Shown: one piece after another, positions 46,865 through 54,172 of the stretch
Position numbering within the stretch: the stretch's first letter is position 1
Layout: the number at the start of each line of letters is the position of its first letter
The notes under the pieces: generated by a model
Seen by the model: only the letters and a program-made list of their open reading frames with translations
Told to the model about the DNA's origin: nothing
Databases searched by the model: none
Assembly: GCF_004361735.1 (NCBI RefSeq)
Contig: NZ_SNVV01000013.1
Coordinates: 1-64,000 of the forward strand
DNA: 64,000 nucleotides
Direction of reading: 5' to 3'
From: Azoarcus indigens
Lineage (GTDB): Bacteria > Pseudomonadota > Gammaproteobacteria > Burkholderiales > Rhodocyclaceae
Position numbers and translations under genes: made by a program

Positions 46865-48088
46865 ATGGACAGAGTGCATAGCTGCGCGGCGCGTGGCGGG
46901 GATACCGCGGAGGTTTTCCGCAAACTGACGGCGCAATTGCCCGAGGGCGCCCGCGGGGCGCAGATGGTAGTGGCCTTCTACGGCTGCGGGCACGACGACA
47001 ACCTGTTGGCCGCCGAGCTGCGACGCCATTTTCCGCAGGCCGCCCTGGTGGGCGGCAGCTCCGCCGGTGGGCTGATGACCGAACGCGGCGTCATCGACGA
47101 GCAGGGCATAGGCCTGCTGGTGCTGGAGGATGCCGCCGGCGAATACGGCGCCGCCGCCGGGCCGCTGGGACACGATCCGGCGGCGGCGGCCGAGGCGCTG
47201 CTGGGGCAGGCGCTGGCAAGCTGCGGCTGCGAAGGGCAGTTGCCCGAGCTGGTATGGATCTACCAGGCGCCCGGTCAAGAGGAGGCGGTACTGGAGGGGC
47301 TGCGGCGGGTGGTGGGCAACACCTGCCCCATCATCGGCGGCACCTCGGCCGACGAAACGGTGGCCGGGCGCTGGCGCCAGCTGGGGCCGACGGGTGCCCT
47401 GAGCGACGGTCTGGTCGTCGGCGTGCTGTTCCCCTCCGCCGCGGTCGGCTTCGCTTTCCAGGGCGGCTATGAACCGGCAGGGCCCAGCGGGGTGGTGACC
47501 GGCATCGGTTTCCAGCCCGACGGTGCCAGCGGCGTGGTCACCCAGGGGCATGGGCGGGAGATCCTCTCCATCGACGGCGAACCTGCCGCCGCGGTGTACA
47601 ACCGCTGGACCGGCGGGGTGATCGCCGCCGAACTGGAACGCGGCGGCTCCATCCTGCAGCAGACCACGATGTTTCCGCTTGCCACCGATGGCGGCCGCAT
47701 CGATGGCGTCACCCACTACCTGCTGATACACCCGGAGTCGGTCACGCCGGCAGGCGGCCTGCGGGTGTTCCGCGATGTGGCCGCCGGCACGCGGCTCTTC
47801 GCCATGCGCGGCGATCGCCGCCGCCTGATAGAGCGCGCCGGCCGCGTCAGCCGCCAGGCCCGCCGCAGCCTGCCAGACGCGCTGGCGGTGGCCGGCGCGC
47901 TGGTGGTGTATTGCGGCGGCTGCAAGATGGCGGTGGACAAGGAAATCGGCGAGGTCGCCGGCGCCATCGCCGAAAGCCTGCATGGCGCGCCCTTCCTCGG
48001 CTGCTTTACCTTCGGCGAACAGGGCTGCCTGATAGACAGCAATGTGCACGGCAACCTGATGATCTCGGCGGTGGTCTTCGCCCGCTGA
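46865..48088 (+). CDS. FIST-domain sensor protein (NosP-like candidate)
   Basis: 407 residues. FIST_N region: VVAFYGCGHDDNLLAAELRRHFPQAALVGGSSAGGLM and PIIGGTSADETVAGRWRQLG. FIST_C region: YLLIHPESVTPAGGLRVFRDVAAG and ALVVYCGGCKMAVDKEIGEVA with FLGCFTFGEQGCL. FIST proteins are sensory; NosP, a FIST haemoprotein that binds nitric oxide, is typically beside a kinase or a c-di-GMP enzyme. Here a GGDEF-EAL gene starts 29 bases later, which is exactly that arrangement. Haem binding is not shown by sequence alone. The ribosome site is weak. Confidence 0.85.
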   Translation: MDRVHSCAARGGDTAEVFRKLTAQLPEGARGAQMVVAFYGCGHDDNLLAAELRRHFPQAALVGGSSAGGLMTERGVIDEQGIGLLVLEDAAGEYGAAAGPLGHDPAAAAEALLGQALASCGCEGQLPELVWIYQAPGQEEAVLEGLRRVVGNTCPIIGGTSADETVAGRWRQLGPTGALSDGLVVGVLFPSAAVGFAFQGGYEPAGPSGVVTGIGFQPDGASGVVTQGHGREILSIDGEPAAAVYNRWTGGVIAAELERGGSILQQTTMFPLATDGGRIDGVTHYLLIHPESVTPAGGLRVFRDVAAGTRLFAMRGDRRRLIERAGRVSRQARRSLPDALAVAGALVVYCGGCKMAVDKEIGEVAGAIAESLHGAPFLGCFTFGEQGCLIDSNVHGNLMISAVVFAR

Positions 48089-48117
48089 ACGAACCGGCCC
48101 CGCTTCTGGACTTCTTC

Positions 48118-50424
48118 ATGTCATTCGACTCCCCCGTCCCGCCCGCCGAGAGCAACGAGGCCCTGCGCGAGGCGCTGCTCTCCCTGCGGCGGGACTACGA
48201 CGCCCTGCGCCAGGCTGGCGCGGACGTGCAGCAACTGCTGGAAGCGCTCGAGTCCCTGCTCGGCGTGGAGGGCGAGGAAGACCCCTTCGTCCGCGTCTTC
48301 TCCTCGCTGCGCAAGGTCTTCACCTTCTCCCAGGCGCTGATGCTGGCCGAGCCGGAAGGGGGCGGCGAGGCGCTGGAGTGCATCGTCGCCGAAGACGCGC
48401 GGCTGCTGCATTCGCGCTGGCCGGTGGCGGCCCTGTTCCGCAAGGTGATGGGCGGCAAGGTGGTGGCCACCTTCTCCACTTCCGGGCTGCCGGAATGGGA
48501 GGTGGCCGCCGGCCTCGGCCTGTCGCCGGCCGGCTCGGCGCTGCTGGTGCCGGTGCGCGTGCGCGAGCGGCGCGGCATCCTGCTGTTGCTGCGCGAGCCG
48601 GGGCTGCCGGGCTTCGACCGCGGCAATGTCGCACTGGCGCGGCGCTACTCGGTGCTGGTGTCCCACGCGCTGGCCAGCCGCTACGCCGCCGAGAGCGCGG
48701 CCGAGAGCCGGCGCCTGCTGGAGCTGAGCCGGCAGCTGCGCCAGAGCGAGCAGGTGGCCAAGCGCAACGCCGACCTGCTGCAGGAGCTGGTGCGGGCGAT
48801 GCCGGTGGGCGTGGCGGTGCAGGACGAAGCCGGGCGGCTGCTGGTCGTCAACGACGCCGGCGCCCGGCTGCTGGGTGCCAGGGTGGAGGAGGTGCTCGGC
48901 GAACTGCCGCCGCACCTGCGGCCGGAAGGCGAGCAGGCTCAGGAGGCCCAGTTGCGCCTCACCCGCTACCGGGAGCGCCTGGCCGGTGGCCTGCCCTACA
49001 CCCGCGAGCGCAGCGTGACGCTGGATGGAGAGGCGCGCACCGTGCTGCTCACCGGCACGCCGGTGCGCATCTTCGATGAATACCTGATGCTCTCCACCTC
49101 GCTGGACATCACCGAGCGCAAACGCTTCGAGGAGGAGATGCAGCGCCACGCCTTCCACGATCCGCTCACCGGCCTGGCCAACCGCGCGCTGATGAACGAG
49201 ATCGTAGACAAGGCGGTGCGCGCCCACCAGGAGCGCGGCATGTTCGCGCTGGCCTTCATCGACATCGACAACTTCAAGCAGGTGAATGACTACTACAGCC
49301 ACGGCATGGGCGACCAGTTGCTGATCGCCTTCTCCCGCCGGGTGGCGGAGGCGCTGCGGCCCAGCGACACGCTGGCGCGCATCAGCGGCGACGAGTTCTT
49401 GCTGCTGGTCGATCCGGCGCAGAACGAAGCCGAGGTGGCACGGGTGATAGAGCGGGTGCTGGAAGCCTGCCGCCGGCCCTTCGTGGTGGAAGGCCACGAA
49501 CTGCTGACCTCCGCCTCCATGGGGGTGAGTTTCTACCCGGCGCACGGCGGCGACTACGAGACCCTGAGGCGCTGCGCCGACAGCGCCATCTACCAGGCCA
49601 AGAGCCTGCGCAAGGGCAGCGTGGCCTACTTCGATGCCAGCATGGGCCACGCGCTCACCGCGCGCATGGACCTGGAGCAGAGCCTGCGCGCCGCGGTCCG
49701 CGACCGCCATTTCCGCAACGCCTACCAGCCCAAGGTGCGGCTGGCGGATGAGGCAGTGGTCGGCTTCGAGGCGCTGGTGCGCTGGGTGGAGCCGGATGGC
49801 CGTATCCAGCCGCCGGGCGTGTTCATAGAGATGGCTGGCGAACTCGGCCTGCTGGACGAAATCACCCTACAGGTGCTGGACGACATCGCCCGCGAACTGC
49901 CGTGCCTGAGTCGCCACTATGGCGCCGGTATCAGCGTGAGCTTCAACGTTTCCGCCCAGCAGGCGGGCGACATGCAGTTCATCGACCGCCTGCTGGCCGC
50001 CATCTCCGCCAGCGGCATTGCCCGGCGGCTGGTGGTGGAACTCACCGAGGATGCGCTGGTCGCCGCCCAGCAGTTCCAGGACGCGGTGCTGCCACGGCTG
50101 CGCGCGCTCGGCGTGCGGGTGTCCATCGACGATTTCGGCACCGGCTACTCCTCGCTGTCCACGCTGGCCGACATCACCGCCGACGAGTTGAAGGTGGATC
50201 GCGCCTTCATCACCGGCATCCATGAGCGGGCCCGCAGCCAGGGCATCCTCAAGGCCATCGAGTCGGTCTGCCGCGCGCTGCAGATCAGCATGGTGGCCGA
50301 GGGGGTGGAAGAGGTGGAGGAGTTGGACTACCTGCGCAGCCACACCGGCATCGCCACCGTGCAGGGTTACTGCTTCGGCCGGCCGGCCTTCCTGGAGGAC
50401 TTGCTGCCGCGCAGCGGCGCTTGA
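48118..50424 (+). CDS. GAF-PAS-GGDEF-EAL bifunctional c-di-GMP enzyme
   Basis: 768 residues, no TM. Order: N-terminal coiled-coil helix (SNEALREALLSLRRDYDALR), GAF domain (about 40-200), PAS domain (QELVRAMPVGVAVQDEAGRLL) and PAC, GGDEF with SGDEF at 423-427 and inhibition site RPSD five residues before, then EAL with E551-AL, D671-DFGTGYSS, KVDRAFITG and EGVEE. The EAL residues are complete, so it is a probable phosphodiesterase; SGDEF variants can retain cyclase activity. Its place after the FIST gene suggests a signal-receiver pair. Confidence 0.9.
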   Translation: MSFDSPVPPAESNEALREALLSLRRDYDALRQAGADVQQLLEALESLLGVEGEEDPFVRVFSSLRKVFTFSQALMLAEPEGGGEALECIVAEDARLLHSRWPVAALFRKVMGGKVVATFSTSGLPEWEVAAGLGLSPAGSALLVPVRVRERRGILLLLREPGLPGFDRGNVALARRYSVLVSHALASRYAAESAAESRRLLELSRQLRQSEQVAKRNADLLQELVRAMPVGVAVQDEAGRLLVVNDAGARLLGARVEEVLGELPPHLRPEGEQAQEAQLRLTRYRERLAGGLPYTRERSVTLDGEARTVLLTGTPVRIFDEYLMLSTSLDITERKRFEEEMQRHAFHDPLTGLANRALMNEIVDKAVRAHQERGMFALAFIDIDNFKQVNDYYSHGMGDQLLIAFSRRVAEALRPSDTLARISGDEFLLLVDPAQNEAEVARVIERVLEACRRPFVVEGHELLTSASMGVSFYPAHGGDYETLRRCADSAIYQAKSLRKGSVAYFDASMGHALTARMDLEQSLRAAVRDRHFRNAYQPKVRLADEAVVGFEALVRWVEPDGRIQPPGVFIEMAGELGLLDEITLQVLDDIARELPCLSRHYGAGISVSFNVSAQQAGDMQFIDRLLAAISASGIARRLVVELTEDALVAAQQFQDAVLPRLRALGVRVSIDDFGTGYSSLSTLADITADELKVDRAFITGIHERARSQGILKAIESVCRALQISMVAEGVEEVEELDYLRSHTGIATVQGYCFGRPAFLEDLLPRSGA

Positions 50425-50579: not shown

Positions 50580-51362
50580 TCAGAATTCCCAGCTCAGCCC
50601 CAGGTTCCAAATTGCCACGCCGTCGCTGCGGCCGGCTGCGCCATAGAGTTTGAGCGCCTCGCTGGCAAGGTGACGCAGACCGATCTGGTAGCCCGGCCAG
50701 GCATGCGTCTGGCCGAAGCGCTCCAGCGTCAGGCTGCTGGTTTCGCTCAGTGGCAGGTCCAGGCCCAGCCCCCAGCGGGTGGCGTCTTCCGCCTCGCCGG
50801 CGGTGCGCGTCCATTCGTGGCCGAGGTTGAGATGCAGCAGCGAACCGTGCGGCTGTTGCCAGCTCAGCAGCAGATCCGCGGAGCGGCCATGCTCGTCGTC
50901 GCCGTCTTCCTTGTCGTCCGGCCGCAGCGCGTAGTACTGGAGCAGCAGACCGGCGGCGAGGCCGGCCTCCGTCTGCCAGGGAACCCATTTCATGCCGAGG
51001 CCGCCGTGGGCCATCCGGGCGTCCGTGCCCTGTCCATGGGCGCGCGAGGCCGCCAGCGCCAGTTGCAGTTCCAGCGTTTCGCTCAGCCCGTAGGCAAGGC
51101 TGGCGCCCATGCCGTGGTGGCTGCCGTCGTCGAAGCCAGCGGTTTCCAGGTTGCCCCTGCCGCGGCCGGAAGTGGCGGCGTCGTCCACCAGCATCGGGCT
51201 CTCCGCCCAAGCGCTTCCTCCGGTCAGCGTACAGGCGGTCAGCATCATGAGCGCCGCGGATAGGATGCTGCGGTTGCGGGACGCTTCGCAGCCGGGGCGG
51301 GCGGCAAGAAGCCGACGGGGGGCCGGGCCTGGATTCCGGCCTGGGTGGGTGGGCATGGGCAT
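50580..51362 (-). CDS. Outer-membrane beta-barrel protein
   Basis: 260 residues. A long basic leader precedes the signal peptide ILSAALMMLTACTLTGGSAWA. The mature part shows alternating polar/hydrophobic strands (MGASLAYGLSETLELQLALA, AGLAAGLLLQYYALR) and ends NLGLSWEF, with a terminal phenylalanine typical of OMPs. No named family recognised; similar small barrels are annotated as porin- or transporter-like. ATG positions at both 51362 and 51356 are possible; AAGGA suits the inner one. Faces the GGDEF-EAL gene. Confidence 0.65.
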   Translation of the reverse strand: MPMPTHPGRNPGPAPRRLLAARPGCEASRNRSILSAALMMLTACTLTGGSAWAESPMLVDDAATSGRGRGNLETAGFDDGSHHGMGASLAYGLSETLELQLALAASRAHGQGTDARMAHGGLGMKWVPWQTEAGLAAGLLLQYYALRPDDKEDGDDEHGRSADLLLSWQQPHGSLLHLNLGHEWTRTAGEAEDATRWGLGLDLPLSETSSLTLERFGQTHAWPGYQIGLRHLASEALKLYGAAGRSDGVAIWNLGLSWEF

Positions 51363-51771
51363 GAGTCCTTGTTTTTCTGCATGCGCCGGGGGGCGAAGGT
51401 GGAGCAGTGGAGGCTGTGCTTATCGCATGATCATAGATTTAACGCACTGTTTTCGCTGGCGTGCGCCGCAAGTCTCTCGCGGGGTCGGCGTTGCTCCGGT
51501 GGCAGCCTGCCGGGTGGATGCGGCTGGGAGAGGTTCGAGTGGAGCTCCGGGGCTGGACACGGCTGAGGTCGCGGCCGCCTCACTTTCGTCCTAGCCGATG
51601 CCTGCCCCGGGCGGCGTGCGTGCATCGCCCGGCGGGGGCGTTCCTGCCACGAACAGAATGCGTGACTCCGTGATTTATTCTTTTCTTCAAGGAGTTGATA
51701 TTTTGCATAATCCAAATGGACTAGTACGCAGATAATCGCGGCCCGCTGGCTAGGGGCAGCCTGGAGGGGGC
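51363..51771. other. AT-richer divergent spacer between OMP and diguanylate cyclase genes
   Basis: 409 bases without a gene. It has two AT-rich patches, 51420-51450 (with palindromic ATGATCAT) and 51670-51735 (TGATTTATTCTTTTCTTC, GATATTTTGCATAATCC). The second is the likely promoter of the cyclase gene, with CATAAT at 51706-51711 and no good -35 at 17 bases. GGAGG lies just before the cyclase ATG. Confidence 0.45.
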
Positions 51772-53637
51772 ATGAATCTCAATCGCAAGATCACTCTGCT
51801 GTTCGTCTGCGTTGCGCTGGGCATCCTGGTCATGCTGATCGCGATCAGCCTTTACGCATTCCGCAGCTATTCCATTGCCTCCTCGACCGCGCATGTGCGC
51901 ACCGCCGCCGAGGTGGTGCGGGTGCACCTCACCGAAGCCATGATCCATGGCGTGATCGACAAGCGGGAGCAGTTCCTCGAGCGTCTGATGGAGGTGAAGG
52001 GCCTGCACAGCGCGCGGGTGGTGCGCTCGCCGGAGGTGACGCGGCAGTTCGGTGCCGGCCTGCTGCGCGAACTGCCGGCGGACGAGATTGAGCGCCTGGT
52101 GCTGGCGGACGGCAAGGCGCGCTACATCCTCACCGACGAACTGGGCACGCCGATGTTCCGCGGCACCATTCCTTTCGCCGCCTCTGCCCGCGGTACGCCC
52201 AACTGCCTGCAGTGCCACCAGGTGCCGGAGGGCTCGGTGCTGGGCGCGGTGACCATGGAGTTGTCGCTGGAAGAGCTGAAGCGCCAGGCGCTGTACACCA
52301 TCGCCGGGCTGATCCTCACCGTCGGCCTGTTCTCCTTCTTCGCCATCCTGATTGCCCGCCGCCTCATCCTGCCGGTAGGCCGCACCGCGCAGGCCGTGGA
52401 GCAGGCGGTGGAGCGGGCGCTCAAGGGCGACTTCAAAGGCGAGGTGGCTTGTCGCACCGACGACGAGATCGGCCACATCGCGGTGCAGACCAACCGCCTG
52501 CTGGGCTTCCTGGACGATGGGCTGAGCCGCATCAGCGGCCGGGTGTCGCAGCTCACCGGCCGGACCCCGCAGGCGGACGAGAACCAGCTGGAAACCACCA
52601 TAGACATGGTGAACGGCCTGGCCGATGCCTCCACCTTCAAGCAGGCCATCGAGGAAGACGAAACCAAGGCGGAGATCTTCGACCGCTTCGGCCAGGTGCT
52701 GGCGGAGCGATTCGACATCCGCAGCTACACCCTCTACGACGTCACCGGCCCCAAGCAACTCGACCCGGTGATGGTGGATGGCGAGGCCGGCGCGCCCTGC
52801 CGCTGGTGCGATCCGCAGATCCTGGTGCGCAGCGACATGTGCCGCGTCAAACGTTCCGGCCATGCGGTGGACGGGCTGGCGCGGCCGGGCATCTGCTATG
52901 CCTTCCGCTCGACCACCGAGGGCAACGAGCCGTTGCGCCACTACTGCGTGCCCATCATGCAGTCTGGCTCGGTGGGCAGCGTGGTGCAGCTGGTGGCGCC
53001 GGCCAGCCAGTCGGCCAGGCTGGAGAGCTGCATCCCCTACATCAACGTCTATCTGCGCGAGATGGCGCCGGTGCTGGAGGCCAAGCGCCTCACCGAAACC
53101 CTGCGCGATTCCTCGCTGCGCGATGCCCTCACCGGCCTCAACAACCGCCGCTTCCTGGAGGAGTACGTCGATACGCTGATGGCCAACGCCCACCGCCGCA
53201 ACATCCCGCTGGCGGTGCTGCTGCTGGACCTGGACTACTTCAAGGTAGTGAACGACACCCTGGGTCATGACGCCGGCGACGTGGTGCTGAAGGCGCTGTC
53301 GGGCGTGCTGCGGCAGTCGGTGCGGGCCTCGGACATGGTGATCCGCTTCGGTGGCGAGGAATTCCTGGTGGTGCTGCAGGATGCCCCTCCGGAGGCGGCG
53401 CTGGGCGTGGCGGAGAACATCCGCAGCGCGGTGGAGAGGCTGCGCACTCCGGTGGGCGGCACCATGCTGCAGAAGACCATCTCCATCGGTGTTGCCATGT
53501 ACCCGGAAGACAGCGAAACCTTCTGGCAGGCGGTGAAGTTCGCCGACGTGGCGCTCTACCGGGCGAAGGAGAGCGGTCGCAACCGGGTGGTGCGCTTCAC
53601 CGCCGACATGTGGGAAGGGCACGCCGAGGCCTATTGA
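51772..53637 (+). CDS. Membrane diguanylate cyclase with periplasmic haem-c motif and cysteine cluster
   Basis: 621 residues. TM1 (LLFVCVALGILVMLIAISLY), periplasmic domain with a CxxCH site (C145, C148, H149 in PNCLQCHQVPEG), TM2 about 173-195 (IAGLILTVGLFSFFAILIAR), HAMP (RLILPVGRTAQAVEQAVE), a GAF-like domain with five cysteines (C343, C346, C357, C375, C392), then GGDEF with GGEEF at 527-531 and inhibition site RASD before it. All residues needed for cyclase activity are present. The periplasmic haem-c would make it a redox or gas sensor; the cytoplasmic cysteines could bind metal or sense redox. Confidence 0.85.
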   Translation: MNLNRKITLLFVCVALGILVMLIAISLYAFRSYSIASSTAHVRTAAEVVRVHLTEAMIHGVIDKREQFLERLMEVKGLHSARVVRSPEVTRQFGAGLLRELPADEIERLVLADGKARYILTDELGTPMFRGTIPFAASARGTPNCLQCHQVPEGSVLGAVTMELSLEELKRQALYTIAGLILTVGLFSFFAILIARRLILPVGRTAQAVEQAVERALKGDFKGEVACRTDDEIGHIAVQTNRLLGFLDDGLSRISGRVSQLTGRTPQADENQLETTIDMVNGLADASTFKQAIEEDETKAEIFDRFGQVLAERFDIRSYTLYDVTGPKQLDPVMVDGEAGAPCRWCDPQILVRSDMCRVKRSGHAVDGLARPGICYAFRSTTEGNEPLRHYCVPIMQSGSVGSVVQLVAPASQSARLESCIPYINVYLREMAPVLEAKRLTETLRDSSLRDALTGLNNRRFLEEYVDTLMANAHRRNIPLAVLLLDLDYFKVVNDTLGHDAGDVVLKALSGVLRQSVRASDMVIRFGGEEFLVVLQDAPPEAALGVAENIRSAVERLRTPVGGTMLQKTISIGVAMYPEDSETFWQAVKFADVALYRAKESGRNRVVRFTADMWEGHAEAY

Positions 53638-53755
53638 AGGCAAGGTGGCCGGGGCGGGGCATATCGCTGGCCACCGTGGCCGCCTGCCGGGGCGCGGGCA
53701 AGCCGATGTTCAGCCCGCGGGCGTGCGCGTCAAGCGGTGCCTGCGGCGGTTCGGC

Positions 53756-54172
53756 TCACACCCGGCCGAAGCCCAGGTACTGGCGTTCGAAACGCTGCTT
53801 GCCTTCGGCCAGGAAACCGTCGAAATCCCACTCGCCAGCGACTAGCAGATGGGCGAATTCGGGGCGGAAAACGTAGGTGTCTGCGTCCTCGATACGGCCA
53901 TCGGCCAGTTCCACCTTCACCTGGAGCCGCAGGTATTGCTCGCCTTCGAAGGCATCCAGGCGAGCGAGGGCGGTGGACGGAACGTTGCGGTAGAGCACGC
54001 CGGCCACGTGCGCGCCTGCGGCGGGAACCATGCCGGGATAGGCTTCGCCCCGCACGGGATGGCGTCGGTGCCCATGCAGGATGGCGGCTTCGTATTCCAG
54101 TACCAAGCCGGCCACGCCGAACATGATGTCGGAGCACATCAGGGAGCCATAGGTGAAGCAGTGCCGGCTCAC
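53756..54172 (-). CDS. AIG2-like gamma-glutamylcyclotransferase-family protein
   Basis: 138 residues. CFTYGSLMCSDIMF is the family opening (YGSLM glycine-rich loop), followed by HGHRRHPVRGEAYPGMVP, GVLYRNVPSTALARLDAFEGEQY with the acidic catalytic residue (E in DAFEGEQY), and TYVFRPEF. Members cyclise gamma-glutamyl amines or amides. Overlaps the upstream gene by four bases (ATGA), so is co-translated with it. Confidence 0.85.
   Translation of the reverse strand: MSRHCFTYGSLMCSDIMFGVAGLVLEYEAAILHGHRRHPVRGEAYPGMVPAAGAHVAGVLYRNVPSTALARLDAFEGEQYLRLQVKVELADGRIEDADTYVFRPEFAHLLVAGEWDFDGFLAEGKQRFERQYLGFGRV

Follow-up and report, generated by a model that had tools for sequence, protein, structure and literature searches.

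The gene at positions 51772 to 53637 of the window, by which we mean the whole stretch of 64,000 nucleotides that was analysed, encodes what we read, with moderate confidence, as a one-component, membrane-spanning diguanylate cyclase with two inputs: a periplasmic heme-c domain responding to redox state or NO, and a cytoplasmic GAF domain carrying four invariant cysteines. The product of such enzymes, c-di-GMP, governs whether cells swim or live in a biofilm.

Reading of the open reading frame gives an intact gene of 621 codons plus a stop, with its ATG at 51772 and its end at 53637 on the + strand. Sequence, hydropathy and Pfam together give the order, from N to C terminus, of a first transmembrane (TM) helix, a periplasmic domain with a CLQCH motif, a second TM helix, a weak HAMP match, a Cys-rich domain and a GGEEF cyclase. 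The ten cysteines of the 621-aa protein lie at 13, 145, 148, 227, 343, 346, 357, 375, 392 and 420; the CxxCH that the preliminary description had located at C145-C148-H149 is plainly there, as CLQCH at 145-149. Pfam strongly recognised GGDEF alone, the two sensor regions having no convincing match. That description had also claimed two TM helices and a HAMP domain: the helices are borne out as hydrophobic stretches at about 7-29 and 176-199, and HAMP (PF00672) stays sub-threshold (16.6 bits vs. a cut-off of 25, E 0.0097). The features are as follows.

51772-53637, + strand: whole gene, predicted 621-aa membrane diguanylate cyclase (ORF, Pfam)
51790-51858, + strand: TM helix 1, about residues 7-29 (hydropathy)
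51859-52296, + strand: predicted periplasmic heme-c Cache-like sensor domain, about residues 30-175 (AlphaFold2 model, Foldseek, second structure aligner)
51940-51942, + strand: Met57, putative distal heme ligand (conservation, alignment to Met60 of GSU0935)
52204-52218, + strand: CLQCH heme-c attachment motif, residues 145-149 (59 of 59 full-length sequences; 115 of 115 heme-domain rows)
52297-52368, + strand: TM helix 2, about residues 176-199 (hydropathy)
52348-52482, + strand: HAMP-like linker, residues 193-237 (sub-threshold PF00672)
52609-53091, + strand: cytoplasmic four-cysteine GAF domain, about residues 280-440 (AlphaFold2 model, fold match)
52798-52800, + strand: C343, outside the invariant core (Cys in 86 of 106)
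52807-52809, + strand: C346, core cysteine 1 (106 of 106)
52840-52842, + strand: C357, core cysteine 2 (106 of 106)
52894-52896, + strand: C375, core cysteine 3 (106 of 106)
52945-52947, + strand: C392, core cysteine 4 (106 of 106)
53116-53586, + strand: GGDEF diguanylate cyclase domain, residues 449-605 (PF00990)
53323-53334, + strand: RxxD inhibitory I-site (RASD), residues 518-521 (sequence motif)
53350-53364, + strand: GGEEF active-site motif, residues 527-531 (sequence motif)

Scanning contigs with residues 1-440 returned 50 loci, of which 44 (L033-L076) cover the whole query at 53-98% identity and come from Azoarcus, Aromatoleum, Pseudothauera, Azonexus, Dechloromonas, Magnetospirillum, Allochromatium, Thiorhodovibrio and others; because these loci were found via six peptides, one holding C148-H149 and one holding C392, they are biased toward keeping those residues. 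The closest relative found, from Azoarcus sp. TTM-91, is 98% identical over residues 1-440, which suggests an Azoarcus-like bacterium as the source of the window. An order-level search of 300 genomes, which has a first step of its own in place of the six peptides, gave 57 genomes with any match and 15 with an essentially full-length one. A profile of the inner domain was found in 69 of 398 phylum-wide genomes and in 5 of 369 genomes drawn from the class, where one of the five is a fragment (L087); both counts include the own genome, and the own genome holds a single copy of this domain.

Loss of CxxCH among homologues had been put forward as the observation that would speak against a heme sensor. 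The motif is kept in all 59 aligned full-length sequences (query included and duplicates kept; a few rows are apparently one organism in two collections), as in members of the PF11845 family (DUF3365/Tll0287, sCache_heme), and in 115 of 115 heme-domain rows. Judged by its sequence, the window protein very probably binds heme c; its genome encodes CcmF, part of heme-c maturation. The earlier suggestion of a DUF3365-like domain comes near, but the window domain falls short of the PF11845 cut-off (12.6 vs. 24.1 bits). Among 40 homologues, weak matches were to PF11845 in 19 (E ≤ 1, best E 0.011), to GAPES3 in 14 (best E 0.004) and to Mcp40H-20_sensor in 3 (best E 0.0049); no Pfam family passed its cut-off for the outer domain in the window protein or in these 40 homologues.

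An AlphaFold2 model of the outer domain, built from 40 sequences, has a pLDDT of 81.9. Foldseek ranked the GSU0935 heme-c sensor first in the PDB (3b42, E 1.4e-5, TM 0.48, rmsd 13.5), followed by WalK Cache domains with better TM scores (0.60-0.62); 3b42 is a domain-swapped dimer (PMC8396549). A second structure aligner put the WalK Cache domain first (Z 13.0), gave the heme protein Tll0287 (5b82) a Z of 9.9 and had neither 3b42 nor 3b47 among its best 50 matches. In the predicted model, CxxCH (116-120 in model numbering) precedes the last strand (127-136) of a Cache fold, which is the arrangement of the PF11845 family. The sCache_heme domains of PMC12889525 likewise carry CxxCH before the last Cache strand, and GGDEF fusions are reported for them; they differ from the window domain in that it scores below the PF11845 cut-off. 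The word GAF is absent from the main text of that preprint.

Neither of two profiles (A1 and A2) brought up a convincing match among PDB sequences, and a phmmer search of the PDB with the periplasmic domain of one paralogue gave nothing useful. A third profile combines 28 related domains, of which 20 belong to proteins that are not members of the window-protein family (30-40% identity), and contains 13 invariant columns, including Met57, Cys145, Cys148 and His149. Against PDB sequences it ranked 3b42 (GSU0935) first (E 0.016) and 3b47 (GSU0582) fourth (E 0.12), both matches spanning the whole domain with CxxCH aligned on CxxCH; since gp41 constructs, which are unrelated, reach 0.085-0.15 in that listing, these E-values alone prove little. 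In this alignment, the invariant Met57 pairs with residue 26 of the 3b42 chain; with Cys140 at chain position 106, this residue is Met60, so that a Met occupies the sixth-ligand position as in GSU0935, on a profile match that is itself weak (E 0.016). All 90 ungapped rows with the Cys-GAF have Met at position 57, and so do all 24 rows in which no Cys-GAF is in frame, one of these 24 being the broken frame of L085.

GSU0935 and GSU0582 resemble the window protein in their periplasmic Cache/PAS-like fold, their CxxCH, their TM-HAMP linkage and, for GSU0935, Met60 at the place of Met57; they differ in their chemotaxis-domain output and in that no GAF domain is described for them, and their sequence match to the window protein is weak. 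A chemoreceptor with an MCPsignal output, encoded in the own genome (L002, contig C17), bears a similar CxxCH periplasmic domain, with 30% identity over query positions 22-264.

The outer domain may detect a gas (NO) or redox state (PMC12889525, PMC8396549). It is a serious possibility that it senses O2 or redox poise, and not NO, as proposed for the Geobacter chemoreceptors: in the crystal dimer of GSU0935, Met60 serves as an axial ligand to one heme of the two, and the signal proposed for GSU0935 and GSU0582 is a redox-linked loss of the axial Met from the iron upon oxidation (PMC8396549). Against this, tight binding of NO and no stable complex with O2 were reported for a signalling-type relative from P. 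azotoformans (PMC12889525).

The inner domain was described beforehand as GAF-like, and the fold agrees with this while the Pfam score does not. Its AlphaFold2 model has a pLDDT of 90.6 and takes a GAF fold, with a Foldseek E of 3.1e-5 to the cAMP-bound Lcd1 GAF domain and a Z of 13.8 to 4g3v (rmsd 3.2 over 155 residues). The fold matches also include phosphodiesterase (PDE) GAF domains and fRMsr, a GAF-fold enzyme with thiol chemistry (3mmh Z 13.2, 3ksf Z 12.8). No Pfam family, those of GAF domains included, passed its cut-off for the inner domain; 1 of 40 homologues weakly matched GAF_2 (E 0.086), and the distant homologue L121 scored 17.2 bits for Pfam GAF vs. a cut-off of 28.6.

Five cysteines, C343 to C392, had been proposed as one centre, their loss in homologues again counting against it. 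C346, C357, C375 and C392 are each Cys in 59 of 59 full-length sequences and C343 in 58, and the three bystanders C13, C227 and C420 are each found as Cys in 2 of the 59; as far as these alignments tell, the conservation of CxxCH and of the core cysteines exceeds chance. The larger set, 112 profile matches at E 1e-5 minus low-coverage and identical rows, holds 106 distinct homologues: here the four are invariant (106/106), and C343 is another residue in 20 and Cys in 86. Four of the five cysteines are thus kept, and C343, with it the CxxC pair, is not; a five-cysteine centre with a CxxC knuckle was accordingly rejected as the core. The conserved core, in the aligned sequences, is four cysteines without a CxxC pair. 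They make up half of the eight positions that never vary in residues 280-439 of the 106 homologues (E294, D296, C346, C357, C375, F378, C392 and P394). Their spacing is x10 in all 106, x17 in 104 and x19 in 2, with a last gap of x12-20; residue 364 is His in 94 of the 106.

Several observations lie at the edges of this set. E294 and D296, in the N-terminal helix of the GAF domain, are as invariant as the cysteines and could be a signalling or ligand element. Outside the 106, L131 (472 aa, no match to any Pfam family, GGDEF included) keeps CxxCH and has Ile at C346, and the 129-aa fragment match L087 lacks most of the cysteines. Eight weak GAF matches (L137-L144) were left out of the Cys-GAF membership counts; seven of them align only from about profile position 131 and can therefore be compared only in the region of C392 (HYC-x-P-[IV]). 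In L138, the C346 and C392 columns are Cys and the C375 column is His, and Gly stands at C357, directly preceded by a Cys. These eight look like a different GAF group in other signalling proteins, which may be distantly related; the HYC-x-P-[IV] around C392 is common to both.

The inner domain behaves as a separate module. CxxCH lies upstream in 90 of the 106 Cys-GAF homologues and is absent in 16, the four cysteines being kept in all. L085 has its heme domain in another frame of the same locus and L100 starts at the edge of the fetched stretch, so that, of the 16 heme-less rows, the other 14 are counted as genuine. Three of them (L117-L119; two of the three Pfam-scanned) have a bare TM hairpin with a short loop, and eleven (L120-L130) combine a different periplasmic domain with the four-cysteine GAF: Pfam recognises sCache_2 in L121, L127 and L130, the three scanned, and the other eight were judged by eye; the start of L120 is cut too, but part of its other sensor is visible. 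It is the persistence of the four cysteines in these 14 proteins that marks the GAF as separate, and a GAF domain that stays while the heme input is missing or replaced is what one would expect of two separate inputs. The converse is seen in L002, where the heme module goes with an MCPsignal output. On a midpoint-rooted tree of the 106, with long branches flagged and used only for placing the heme label, this label changes four times, two of the changes being the artefacts L085 and L100; L117-L119 fall inside a heme-bearing clade and L120-L130 form their own supported branch.

The four cysteines probably form a cofactor or redox centre, to judge from their conservation. Our tentative first choice for it is an iron-sulfur (Fe-S) cluster, on account of the invariance, the spacing without a CxxC knuckle, the cytoplasmic place and the Fe-S precedents, AirS and CSK. 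AirS of Staphylococcus aureus is a four-Cys [2Fe-2S] sensor that reacts with oxidants and with a nitrosating agent; it differs in its histidine kinase output and in its spacing (C-x7-C-x-C-x17-C, PMC4601167), which does not recur in the Cys-GAF (x10, x17 or x19, x12-20). In CSK/Hik2, a redox [3Fe-4S] centre is tied to a GAF domain, as we propose for the window protein, whereas only one Cys ligand has been identified and the output is a kinase (PMC6949291). NorR senses NO with a mononuclear non-heme iron in a GAF domain, the proposed ligands being Arg, Asp and one Cys, not four Cys (PMC4601167). The likeness to fRMsr is one of fold alone (3mmh Z 13.2), without residue alignment. GSU2622 (HAMP/GAF/HD-GYP) has a heme-c motif, a HAMP, a GAF and a c-di-GMP-type output (PMC8396549); this output is of the hydrolase type, and the likeness is one of domain description.

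Two other readings of the cysteines seem unlikely to us, each to a similar degree. The cysteines could bind structural zinc, leaving the heme domain alone to sense and the GAF domain as a connector or as the binding site of an unrelated small ligand. Four invariant cysteines do fit a Zn(Cys)4 site too, and GAF domains often bind small molecules, the fold matches including the cAMP-bound Lcd1 GAF and PDE GAFs; yet the core, once C343 is dropped, has no CxxC knuckle, which most zinc ribbons have, and in L117-L119, which lack a sizeable periplasmic part, the GAF domain is the only candidate input seen. The cysteines could also act as a metal-free thiol/disulfide or persulfide switch, in keeping with fRMsr among the fold matches and with the cysteine-based redox control of the c-di-GMP enzymes PdeC and HmsCD (PMC8846402). 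The cytoplasmic location argues against such a switch, as does a four-way invariance with a fixed x10 and a near-fixed x17, where a simple switch needs only two cysteines.

The cyclase was described as complete, and so it proves: PF00990 (GGDEF) scores 163.5 bits vs. a cut-off of 23.8, and both the active site (GG[DE]EF, here GGEEF at 527-531) and the I-site (RxxD, here RASD at 518-521) are present, with RxxD five residues ahead of GGEEF in every homologue that has a recognisable motif (104 of 106). From its sequence, we predict with high confidence that the window protein is an active cyclase. Two homologues with heme and Cys-GAF domains, L132 and L133, have good Pfam GGDEF scores without a recognisable GG[DE]EF and may therefore be non-catalytic; that the window protein is likewise degenerate, its motifs being relics, is very improbable, given that GGEEF and RxxD are kept in 104 of 106 homologues and that the window protein is intact.

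Put together, the protein might work as follows. Outside, a Cache-fold sensor would hold a covalent heme c on C145 and C148. The ligands of this heme would follow the pattern of GSU0935, His149 on the proximal side and a labile Met57 on the distal one; once the iron is oxidised or takes up NO, Met57 would come off, and TM2 and the HAMP-like linker would shift. Inside, C346, C357, C375 and C392 would bind the GAF centre, by first choice an Fe-S cluster sensitive to O2, NO or redox state, with zinc or a thiol switch as the other possibilities. Both inputs would act via the helix that leads from the GAF domain into the GGEEF cyclase, an enzyme that would also be product-inhibited through its RxxD I-site. 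The domain order, the conservation, the predicted folds and the modular nature of the inner domain are what the analysis shows; heme loading, ligation by Met57, the type of cluster, the identity of the signals and the direction of regulation are inferred from these, as are the two redox-linked signals of the preliminary description.

Heme-c Cache sensors with GGDEF outputs have already been reported as a class (PMC12889525). Among the papers brought up by full-text searches of an open-licence collection, most of them judged by title and the start of the abstract, we found no description of a Cys4-GAF paired with heme c, or of an Fe-S-gated diguanylate cyclase. In a 2022 census of c-di-GMP sensors, the inputs given in the oxygen/redox table are heme, hemerythrin, flavin and disulfide, and neither iron-sulfur nor Fe-S appears as a term in the main text (PMC8846402). 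A conserved Cys4-GAF in the cyclases of Azoarcus, Aromatoleum, Magnetospirillum, Dechloromonas, Chromatiaceae and others would bring in a novel class of internal input. Combined with a heme domain on the outside, these proteins would offer a natural system for studying how one enzyme weighs periplasmic against cytoplasmic signals, and the 14 homologues with another or no periplasmic sensor are ready-made controls. If the two-sided input is true, the enzyme could report chemical conditions on both membrane faces. More speculatively, and with rather less confidence than we have in the two-input reading itself, the Cys4-GAF may be a new Fe-S sensor domain and the family the first Fe-S-gated diguanylate cyclase, forming with heme c a two-sided detector that compares redox state or NO across the inner membrane before c-di-GMP synthesis.

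Clustering of the ORFs around 44 loci and the window gave, among the 40 largest clusters, no neighbour family that exceeds 14 of the 45 loci; clusters above that size (20, 44, 44, 44 and 45 loci) consist of the gene itself and overlapping frames, by their window coordinates. No sigma-70-like promoter was seen in 51200-54000. FNR-like sites with at most 2 mismatches number 10 in the whole window vs. 3.7 expected, a count that 1 of 100 shuffles reaches; most of the 10 look coding, none lies upstream of the 51772 gene, and the sole nearby match, at 51835, is inside it. A second c-di-GMP-type protein, with SGDEF and EAL-type motifs, is encoded at 47911-50424 on the + strand, the same strand as the cyclase gene, and ends about 1.3 kb upstream; an ORF on the opposite strand (50580-51362) lies between the two, and a shared operon is not evident.

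A cytochrome d1-type gene is present in 13 of the 15 genomes with a full-length homologue vs. 65 of the 285 without (Fisher p 7e-7), in apparently the same order-level draw of 300 genomes, with genomes counted singly and kinship ignored. Within the own family, cytochrome d1 is in all 9 genomes and a full-length homologue in only 5. The association with cytochrome d1 (nirS-type) fits denitrifiers exposed to NO, but is confounded.

On the tree, the copies of the Azoarcus group are placed with two Chromatiaceae copies (100/100), and those of Azonexus and Dechloromonas beside Magnetospirillum (94/63, not strong); the Chromatiaceae and Magnetospirillum groupings hint at horizontal transfer. One copy nested among the Magnetospirillum-type sequences (L062) is filed under a metagenome-assembled genome of Stygiobacter (Ignavibacteriota), from either a mis-binned contig or a transfer.
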